Assembly: GCF_009392895.1 (NCBI RefSeq)
Contig: NZ_CP045488.1
Span: forward strand, 1,798,001 to 1,862,000
Reading direction: 5' to 3'
Origin: Natronorubrum aibiense
Lineage (GTDB): Archaea; Halobacteriota; Halobacteria; Halobacteriales; Natrialbaceae
Length of the DNA: 64,000 nt
Shown: positions 61,010 through 64,000 of the stretch, one piece after another
Numbering within the stretch: position 1 is the stretch's first letter
Layout of the letters: every line of letters starts with the position of its first letter
The notes under the pieces: model-generated
What the model was told of the DNA's origin: nothing
What the model saw: only the letters and a program-made list of their open reading frames with translations
Databases searched by the model: none
Translations under genes and position numbers: made by a program

Positions 61010-62356
61010 CTATCCGAGGACGGCAAACGACAGTACCAACAGCGCACACACGATCGCCCCGGACAACGTTGCGAGGAAGTTCACGCTCTGGTTGCCGAGC
61101 AGGCGTCCCTCGAGGGTCGCACCGAGGAGACTATCGACGGTCATGCCGACGACGCCGGCGGCGACGATGATCCCCGCGCCAACGGCCGTGACCTCCGGGA
61201 AGAGCCCATAGGAGATCCCGGCGACGACGGCTGCGCCCACGATTCCAGCGACCTCGCCCTGCCAGGTCACGCCGCCGTCGGTGCCGGGTTCGACGGGTTC
61301 GAGGGTCGTAATCAGCCGCGGAGTGTCGAAGACGCTGCCGATCTCACTCGAGAGCGTGTCACTCATGGCGGTCGCAACCGAGCCGGCGAACGCGAAGAGA
61401 AACAGGCTGGGATCGTGGCCGCCGGGCAACAGCGCGGCGGAACTCGCCGCGTAGCCGAGGACGGCGACGATCGCGACGGCGGCGTTGCCGAGCACGTTGC
61501 CGCTGCCGCGGGCGCCGTTGTTGTCCTCGGCAACGCCCATCGTCGCTTTCTGTTCGTAGCGGAACTTCGAGGAGAGACCGCCGATGGCAAAAAACGAGAT
61601 GAGGACGACGAACCAGCCGTAGCCGCCGAGGACGATCGTCAACAGCCCGAGCAGAATACCGGTGAGCATGCCTGCGATCGAAGCGGTCTCGAGTGCGTAC
61701 GAGACGTAGCCGAGTGCGATCGTGACGACGAGCGCGGCGACGATCTCGGGCAGGGCGTGGGTCGGCTCGAGTTCCGCGAGGAGCCAACACAGGAGTCCAA
61801 CAGCTAACATGACGATTGGATCGTCATTTGAATACAGGACGTCACGGAGCAAGGCGGCGAGCAACGCACCGCTCGCACCGAGAAAGACCATGAGCGGCAG
61901 CGTCGACGTGATCGACTCGAAGGTGCCAGCGCCGTCGGTAATCGTGACCGTCGCAGCCTGTCCGACGATGGCAGCGGCGGCCGCGACCAGACAGAAGACG
62001 GTGACGATGACAACGTCGCTGTCCGTCCGCTGGCGGGTGAACTGCGCTGCGACGTTGCCGTATCCGATGAGGAGGACAGTCCCGACGAAGACGGCGAGCG
62101 TCATCGACGTTGTCACCGCGATCAGGCCGAGGGCGACGGTCGCGAGGACGAACGTGATGAGCCCGTAGAGCCGGCCGTCCTCGTAGTCGCTCGGATAGGC
62201 GAGGAGATCGAAGAGAGGGCCGTCAGTTACCGCGAAGGCCCCAAGGATCACCACGGCTGCGAGTGCGGCCCCAACCTCAGGGCCACCGAGGGGGACGGCG
62301 AGTGCAAACGTACAGATGATCGCAAAGACGCTTGCTCGCCGGACGGGTGCTGTCAC
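61010..62356 (-). CDS. DUF92 family membrane protein (VTE6-like polyprenyl/phytyl phosphate kinase family)
   Basis: 448 residues with GTG start at 62356. About 12 membrane helices. The C-terminal half is DUF92: GGLSSKFRYEQKATMGVAEDN, SGNVLGNAAVAIVAVLGYAAS, FAGSVATAMSDTLSSEIGSVF and VTWQGEVAGIVGAAVVAG. Plant VTE6 of this family phosphorylates phytyl phosphate. The N-terminal half is an extra haloarchaeal membrane block. Its neighbours are two cis-prenyltransferase-like genes, so a role in polyprenol or dolichol phosphate metabolism fits; this is inference. Confidence 0.88.
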   Translation of the reverse strand: MTAPVRRASVFAIICTFALAVPLGGPEVGAALAAVVILGAFAVTDGPLFDLLAYPSDYEDGRLYGLITFVLATVALGLIAVTTSMTLAVFVGTVLLIGYGNVAAQFTRQRTDSDVVIVTVFCLVAAAAAIVGQAATVTITDGAGTFESITSTLPLMVFLGASGALLAALLRDVLYSNDDPIVMLAVGLLCWLLAELEPTHALPEIVAALVVTIALGYVSYALETASIAGMLTGILLGLLTIVLGGYGWFVVLISFFAIGGLSSKFRYEQKATMGVAEDNNGARGSGNVLGNAAVAIVAVLGYAASSAALLPGGHDPSLFLFAFAGSVATAMSDTLSSEIGSVFDTPRLITTLEPVEPGTDGGVTWQGEVAGIVGAAVVAGISYGLFPEVTAVGAGIIVAAGVVGMTVDSLLGATLEGRLLGNQSVNFLATLSGAIVCALLVLSFAVLG

Positions 62357-62574: not shown

Positions 62575-62669
62575 GACCAGTGCGCGAGTTTCGCTGTCGA
62601 CCCTGTCTGTGGTCGCCGCGAAGCGAACAAATCCGTAACCCTATACCATCGGACCGGAAACGCAAGCGC

Positions 62670-63275
62670 GTGGGACTGTACGAACGGTATCTCGCCCTCC
62701 GGATTCGCCGTCACGACGGTGAACCGCCGGATCACATCGCGCTCGTGATCACCGAACGCGACCTCCTCGAGCGTGGCGCCTACGAGACGCTGACGGACTT
62801 TTTCGACTGGGCGTTCGAGTACGCCTCGCAGGTTACCGTCTACGTCAGCGTCCTCGACGCTGCGGCCGTCCCCGCCTTGCGCCGCGAACTCGAGACGATC
62901 GACGCACCACAGGAGGTGGCCGTCCGCGGCCCCGACGATCGGACGCGTGCGGACGCGCCGATCCGCATCGGGATCGGACTCGGCGGCAAACACGAGTTTA
63001 CCAGCGCGGTTCGGACGCTCGCCGAACACGTCGAGGCGGGCGAGCTCGAGCCCGACGACATCGACGCCGATCGGGTCGAAGACCACCTCATCTTCCCTTC
63101 GGAGCCGGATCTCGTGATCAAAACCGGTGCGGAGCGCCTCTCCGATTTCATGATCTGGCAGTCGGTCTACTCGGAGCTGTACTTCACCGACGTCAACTGG
63201 CGGGACTTCCGCAAGCGTGACTTCCTGCGCGCGGTACTCGAGTACTGTAACCGTTCCCGTCGGTTCGGTCGGTAA
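62670..63275 (+). CDS. cis-Prenyltransferase-like protein lacking the catalytic Asp motif (NgBR-like)
   Basis: 201 residues from GTG 62670 (MGLYERYLALRIRRHDGEPP). It has the UppS fold: IRIGIGLGGKHEFTSAV (counterpart of LNIALAYGGRSQLLEAI), KTGAERLSDFMIWQSVYSELYF and NWRDFRKRDFLRAV. The position of H-x-x-x-x-M-D-G-N-x-R reads HIALVITERDLLERG, so the Mg-binding Asp is missing. The protein ends RRFGR, keeping the C-terminal R-x-G that completes the partner site in dimers. This is the pattern of the non-catalytic subunit (NgBR/Nus1) of heteromeric cis-prenyltransferases. The catalytic-type gene is convergent, 85 bases away. Confidence 0.85.
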   Translation: MGLYERYLALRIRRHDGEPPDHIALVITERDLLERGAYETLTDFFDWAFEYASQVTVYVSVLDAAAVPALRRELETIDAPQEVAVRGPDDRTRADAPIRIGIGLGGKHEFTSAVRTLAEHVEAGELEPDDIDADRVEDHLIFPSEPDLVIKTGAERLSDFMIWQSVYSELYFTDVNWRDFRKRDFLRAVLEYCNRSRRFGR

Positions 63276-63360
63276 CGCGGGCGGTCAGCACTCCGGGCGA
63301 TGGACGACACGTCTCAGCGTTCTGAACCCTGCTCTACAACCCGTGTGACGTTTCTCAGTC

Positions 63361-64000
63361 TCAGTCGGCGGTCTGACCGCTCGAGTCGAGCCCGTCGCCG
63401 GAGTCGGCGTCGAGACCGGACAATTCCTCGGGCGTGGGCTGTTCGGCCGTTGGCAGCGAGTCGCGGAACCGTTCGACGACCGATTTGGCCTCGACGAGTT
63501 CGGGCTCGCTGATCGCTCCGAGCAAGGCGATGGCTCGGCGGGCGCGAGTCCGTCGCCACGACTCCTCGCGGTGTTCGTACGTGCGAATCCCACGCAGGAA
63601 GTCCGTCTTCGAGAACTCCGGCCAGTAGGGCGTACAGAAGAAGACCGCGGCCTCGTTGCCGTTTGCGTGCCACGGCAGGAAGTTCGAGGTGCGCTCGTCG
63701 CCCCCTGTCCGAATAATGAGATCGACGTCGCGAACTGGCTGGTCGTAGAGTCGGTTTTCGATCGTCTCAACGTCGATCTCGTCGGGCTCGAGCTCGCCCG
63801 CCTCGACGTCGGTGGCAACGCCGTTGATCGCCTCGAGCAACTGTGAGCGGCCGCCGTAGGCCAGCGCAATGTTGAGCACGAACTGATCGTAGCCGCGGGT
63901 TTGCGCTTCGGCGTAGTCGACGGCCTCTTGCACGCGCTCGGGCAGCCGGTCGACTTCGCCGATCGCGCGGATGCGGACCTCGTTGTCGTGGACGCGGTCG
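63361..64000 (-). CDS. uppS: Undecaprenyl/polyprenyl diphosphate synthase, C-terminal part (5' end outside window)
   Basis: The frame runs off the right edge; 212 codons plus stop are visible. Conserved parts: RIRAIGEVDRLPERVQEAVD, LNIALAYGGRSQLLEAINGV, DLIIRTGGDERTSNFLPW (both IPP-diphosphate Arg), and TPYWPEFSKTDFLRGI. The N-terminal M-D-G-N motif is outside the window. It would build cis-polyprenyl (dolichyl-type) diphosphate for N-glycosylation. After the FLRGI helix the tail does not have the usual RRFG; instead it has a long acidic end (SGLDADSGDGLDSSGQTAD). The R-x-G may be supplied by the neighbour at 62670. Confidence 0.94.
   Translation of the reverse strand, partial: DRVHDNEVRIRAIGEVDRLPERVQEAVDYAEAQTRGYDQFVLNIALAYGGRSQLLEAINGVATDVEAGELEPDEIDVETIENRLYDQPVRDVDLIIRTGGDERTSNFLPWHANGNEAAVFFCTPYWPEFSKTDFLRGIRTYEHREESWRRTRARRAIALLGAISEPELVEAKSVVERFRDSLPTAEQPTPEELSGLDADSGDGLDSSGQTAD

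Follow-up and report, generated by a model that had tools for sequence, protein, structure and literature searches.

Two convergent genes of Natronorubrum aibiense as likely subunits of a heteromeric cis-prenyltransferase conserved across the Halobacteriota

The right end of the 64,000-nucleotide stretch of Natronorubrum aibiense DNA analysed here (the window; G000:C1:1798001-1862000 of the host genome) carries two adjacent genes of the cis-prenyltransferase family, and raises the question of whether they encode two independent proteins or the two halves of a single enzyme. The genes converge, with 85 bases (63276..63360) between their stop codons, and are the only PF01255 genes in the host genome. 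We refer to them as N, an NgBR-like and putatively non-catalytic partner, and C, a catalytic-type subunit.

Gene N occupies 62670..63275 on the forward strand and encodes 201 residues from a GTG start, with its stop codon at 63273-63275; we place the start at 62670 rather than at 62580 because conservation among N proteins begins exactly at V/M-G-L-Y-D. Direct reading of the sequence confirms the motifs that had been described for this protein: HIALVITERD (62733..62762) stands at the position of the UppS motif H-x-A-x-x-M-D-G-N-R, with loss of the DGN, GGKHE and KTGAERLSDF are present, and the last residues are RRFGR-stop, in which RFGR (63261..63272) represents the RxG motif followed by exactly one residue. 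Only the C-terminal half of the PF01255 profile is matched (E 1e-25), and the motifs E-x-D-L, GGKxE, RLSDFxIWQ and RRFG are near-invariant among N proteins. In one family (f20; genomes G250 and G258, loci L365 and L367) N is reduced to 164-168 residues; almost all of its first half is missing while the ending, RERRFG-x or RDRRFG-x, persists, as if the C-terminal arm and the interface alone were needed.

Gene C lies on the reverse strand, and its 3' part (63361..64000) runs off the window end; the remainder was taken from the host genome, where the gene runs on as far as window position 64317 (G000:C1:1861361-1862317) and encodes 318 residues. The N-terminus missing from the window was recovered in this way as MKRWLRRRVDAAYERVLSREISGAPTHVAVIQDGNRRYAR and contains an intact DGNRR site, the DGN being residues 33-35, outside the window, in the context IQDGNRRYAR, so that the QDGNRRYA site is complete. 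The protein has HVAVIQDGNRRYAR, FSTENFNR, GGRSQLL, RTGGDERTSNFLPWH and RTGGDERTSNF, and the whole PF01255 profile is matched (E 1.7e-69). An RxG was sought in the tail of this protein after IRTYEHREESWRR and none was found; the stretch aligned to the RxG of homodimeric enzymes (63550..63564, reverse strand) reads about ESWRR (REESWRR) and is followed by a helical extension of ~60 residues. The full-length gene bears out the original prediction that C keeps its IPP-site motifs and has a tail lacking RxG. The proposed division of motifs between the two proteins stands for DGN and RxG but not for the IPP site, which does not separate them, as N keeps GGKHE and TGAERLS. Neither N nor C carries DGN and RxG on one polypeptide, the arrangement of homodimeric UppS.

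A census of 148 distinct C and 140 N proteins, read from the fetched loci of haloarchaea, establishes that this split active site is neither a local oddity nor due to chance. The DGN is found in 148/148 C and 0/140 N proteins, and all 139 intact N proteins, every one of them without DGN, end in R-x-G, exactly one residue and a stop; the one N that lacks RxG (L117) has masked or gapped sequence and does not count as a true loss. No RxG occurs at the aligned tail position in any of the 148 C proteins, and RRG matches in two of them (L100 and L206), some ten residues beyond the motif position, were rejected as chance. A protein combining DGN and RxG, which would speak against the heteromeric reading, was sought among these ~290 haloarchaeal proteins and was absent, the motifs being fully complementary. 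Within the haloarchaea, N proteins share 69% identity on average and C proteins 66%, so that the motif states are selected rather than copied by recency. C proteins show no conserved substitute tail in place of the RxG, having either a helical extension, itself variable, or a short end. On the C side the arginines equivalent to human R37 and R85, within DGNRR and ENFxR, are conserved in 100% and 98% of proteins respectively.

The two genes are close to universal in their phylum. PF01255 is represented in 242/242 haloarchaeal genomes, nearly always in two copies; a counterpart of the window N is present in all 242 and the N and C pair in 241, the one missing C belonging to a 120-contig draft (G072), which we take to be an assembly gap. 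Beyond the haloarchaea, both genes occur in 31 of the 33 sampled Halobacteriota genomes, and an N profile matches 145 of 147 genomes across the phylum, with R-x-G-x-stop in 73 of the 75 N proteins of the phylum-wide set. The other two of the 33 genomes (G248 and G256, family f18) are drafts of one genus, 91% complete, with zero cis-prenyltransferase genes. Five haloarchaea (G105, G061, G068, G148 and G226) have extra C copies without extra N, and one (G195) has two complete pairs, at L179 (C31) and L160 (C39), one convergent and the other a same-strand tandem.

Where did the pair come from? In a tree of euryarchaeal, bacterial and human proteins, N forms one clade (100/100), C forms another (93/96), and the single archaeal enzymes fall outside both; archaeal proteins together with human DHDDS are set apart from bacteria (100/99). 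Single-copy enzymes prevail in the sister euryarchaeal groups: all 60 Methanobacteriota genomes have the gene, 59 of them in exactly one copy, and the sampled Thermoplasmata and Methanomassiliicoccales have one cis-prenyltransferase gene each. These single proteins outside Halobacteriota carry both DGN and RxG, and the ending of RxG plus exactly one residue accompanies DGN in 44/44 archaeal single enzymes, as compared with 0/18 bacterial enzymes, in which 3 to 21 residues follow the RxG. An archaeal-type single enzyme also appears on a contig titled Candidatus Nealsonbacteria (L288), where it groups with Haladaptatiplasma (98, starred) and is probably a binning error. The simplest history suggested by these sequences is that one archaeal enzyme was duplicated and split at about the root of Halobacteriota: an enzyme containing both halves would have been duplicated before the radiation of the phylum, and complementary losses would have followed, C losing the RxG and N losing the DGN and the tunnel helices.

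The gene neighbourhood is similarly conserved. N and C lie within 12 kb of each other in 67 of the 86 haloarchaeal genomes with coordinates for both, and are convergent in 67/67; the remaining 19 have them on separate contigs or at a long distance from each other. Among non-haloarchaeal Halobacteriota, 14 of 31 genomes have the genes within 12 kb, 13 of the 14 convergently and with a smallest gap of 7 bases, and the convergent order seems to have been inherited from the common ancestor. Such an arrangement is unusual for the genes of a two-subunit enzyme, and it implies that N and C are not co-transcribed. In many haloarchaea heme and siroheme genes (an AsnC/Ahb-like regulator, SirC-like and HemA-like) adjoin C; here they lie past the window end (L003:7984-11133, forward strand).

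The divergent neighbour of N is a DUF92 (TIGR00297) membrane protein gene (61010..62356, reverse strand), a candidate polyprenol or dolichyl-phosphate kinase. Its linkage to the pair, proposed from this locus alone, proves to be general: of the 80 loci of at least 8.5 kb, 71 have DUF92 placed divergently next to N, down to Methanoperedens and Methanothrix, and it stays there even where C is elsewhere. Plant VTE6 also belongs to the DUF92 family. VTE6 is a phytyl-phosphate kinase (PMC7580956), and by this analogy it is a reasonable guess that the archaeal DUF92 protein is a kinase for a polyprenyl or dolichyl substrate, either the alcohol or its phosphate; a search of the literature turned up nothing relevant on archaeal DUF92 kinases. 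Mirror-tree correlations are 0.815 for N and C, 0.811 for N and DUF92 and 0.813 for C and DUF92, and the first being no higher than those with DUF92, the method is uninformative on the partnership of N with C.

Structural comparisons suggest how the division of labour may operate. AlphaFold models were examined for N (pLDDT 86) and for C (pLDDT 84), the latter made from the Natrinema altunense orthologue (L244) because the window holds only part of its own C. The N model has the cis-prenyltransferase fold (Foldseek probability 1.00), with the last three residues disordered in the monomer, and the best PDB matches of the C model are human DHDDS chains over ~300 columns, including the helical C-terminal extension, which itself aligns poorly (rmsd about 8). 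The tunnel region is 45 residues long in N versus 78 in C and single enzymes, a loss of ~33 residues or about a third, and the same two places are shorter in NgBR (58 and 28 residues) than in DHDDS (79 and 41). In the human heteromer, the C-terminal RxG arm of NgBR reaches across the dimer interface into the DHDDS active site; there the L291-G292 backbone binds phosphate, and the terminal carboxylate is in contact with DHDDS R37 and R85 (PMC7573591). By the proposed mechanism, C would use DGNRR to bind Mg and the allylic diphosphate and would carry out catalysis in a normal tunnel, and N, lacking DGN and tunnel helices, would be inactive alone and dimerise with C. The C-terminal R-F-G-R-COO- arm of N would then insert across the interface into the C active site and supply the RxG that C is missing. 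We infer the physical complex, the arm insertion, the activity and a C55-60 product from these comparisons.

An enzyme of this heteromeric kind is already known through MM_0618 and MM_1083 of Methanosarcina mazei, which, as reported in PMC8131916 citing Emi 2019 (BBRC 520:291), form a heteromer that makes C45-50 products and is thought to be the carrier synthase. It comes from the same phylum, and according to that account the two homologues are needed together and the product is of medium chain length. Methanosarcina genomes have one N (L278) and one C (L381) inside the same two clades, as does Methanosarcina spelaei, and the third M. mazei homologue, MM_0014, a homodimer without RxG (PMC8131916), is distant from C (E 2.9e-17). 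MM_0618 and MM_1083 should therefore be, by elimination, the orthologues of N and C, an assignment that rests on M. spelaei and relatives. Third paralogues in three genomes (G242:C3, G259:C1:1608317 and G332:C20), whose full-length matches are weaker (E 1e-40 to 1e-45), are probably of the MM_0014 type. The systems differ in that the Methanosarcina genes are apart whereas those of the window are convergent neighbours, and in carrier length, Haloferax carriers being C55 and C60 dolichyl phosphate (PMC3827465) as against the C45-50 cited for M. mazei. Homodimeric UppS/DPPS of bacteria and single-gene archaea shares PF01255, the catalytic fold and its motifs with C, but has DGN and RxG on one protein where the haloarchaeal pair has them on two.

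Two other interpretations of the pair have to be weighed. C might by itself form a homodimer with an RxG-independent tail, leaving N as a separate regulator or with some other role; MM_0014 and its relatives offer a precedent, as they lack RxG and are active homodimers by virtue of a TLGG tail (PMC8131916), and the extra C copies alongside a single N in some genomes fit such an arrangement. We consider this improbable, given that C has no conserved substitute tail at the RxG position, that it is orthologous, by elimination, to a protein reported in PMC8131916 to be heteromeric, and that N is kept in virtually every genome with the RxG-x-stop end as its most constant feature, which would be needless in a protein that does not participate. 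N could alternatively be a decaying, functionless paralogue, or else catalyse a reaction of its own as a cis-prenyltransferase whose metal site differs, as might be supposed from its lack of the DGN, of the tunnel helices and of any Pfam signal in the first half, and from its reduction to 164-168 residues in family f20. That N persists in 242/242 haloarchaea and 145/147 Halobacteriota, its motifs near-invariant, does not accord with decay, and an independent reaction is unlikely because the DGN aspartate, the catalytic residue of the family, is missing; we regard both forms of this proposal as highly improbable.

The best explanation is that N and C together form an obligate heteromer that synthesises the dolichyl carrier of C55-60. 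It draws on the complementary motif loss, the near-universal pairing (241/242 haloarchaeal genomes), the separate N and C clades, the conserved neighbourhood (67/67 convergent), the conserved C arginines, the tunnel loss common to N and NgBR, and the phylum-wide orthology that includes the M. mazei heteromer, and it is also the reading favoured by the original prediction. We are thus highly confident that N and C are subunits of one cis-prenyltransferase producing the polyprenyl diphosphate carrier, the dolichyl precursor, with the N arm supplying the RxG, and that the pair arose by ancient duplication and complementary loss.

The same division is seen in the dehydrodolichyl diphosphate synthase DHDDS/NgBR of humans (yeast Rer2/Nus1), with DGN and no RxG in one subunit, and RxG plus one C-terminal residue and no DGN in the other; N and NgBR are also both shortened in the tunnel region. 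There are differences, as NgBR has an N-terminal membrane region where N has none, and the human product is longer than the haloarchaeal one. Using human sequences identical to the PDB chains, we find that the match between the N profile and NUS1 runs end to end (E 4.7e-07), that NgBR scores 40 bits with N but equally well, at 42 bits, with single archaeal enzymes, and that DHDDS scores 276 bits with single archaeal enzymes versus 199-243 with C. The greater closeness of DHDDS to the single enzymes favours a separate split in eukaryotes. A grouping of N with NgBR has an SH-aLRT of 87 (not starred), the NgBR branch being so long (5.65 changes per column) that every placement is allowed, and a clade of NgBR with DHDDS is likewise not rejected (p 0.75), NgBR being too diverged to place. 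The motif LVITE, common to human NgBR and haloarchaeal N, was set aside as a sign of homology and may be coincidence, since other Halobacteriota N proteins read LVIAE, IILKE, FMITE or LVLDE there. The sequence comparisons lean towards independence of the eukaryotic and Halobacteriota splits. We tentatively suggest, with rather more doubt than conviction, that the same division of labour evolved twice from a single archaeal-type enzyme, at the Halobacteriota root and in eukaryotes, and that in Halobacteriota the RxG subunit is genetically linked to a kinase of the DUF92 family working on the same carrier; if true, this kinase would account for a step in archaeal dolichyl phosphate metabolism that is uncharacterised.

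Distant euryarchaeal paralogues of the family were noted by Lombard 2016, in which the later steps of the pathway are described as uncharacterised (PMC5088576), and a partial literature search found no paper describing the haloarchaeal pair or the phylum-wide split. To the known heteromer the present analysis adds the phylum-wide distribution, the age of the split and the DUF92 linkage. Judging from its sequences, the pair is the likely synthase of the lipid that carries sugars in haloarchaea, and its conserved neighbour DUF92 offers a concrete candidate for the enzyme acting next in the pathway. With haloarchaeal carriers of C55-60, the pair would run counter to a stated rule by which medium-chain enzymes are homodimers. 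What has long been regarded as a eukaryotic peculiarity, an enzyme of two subunits, appears to be the norm throughout an archaeal phylum, and it provides a clean case of one enzyme divided between complementary subunits while sister groups retain the undivided form.
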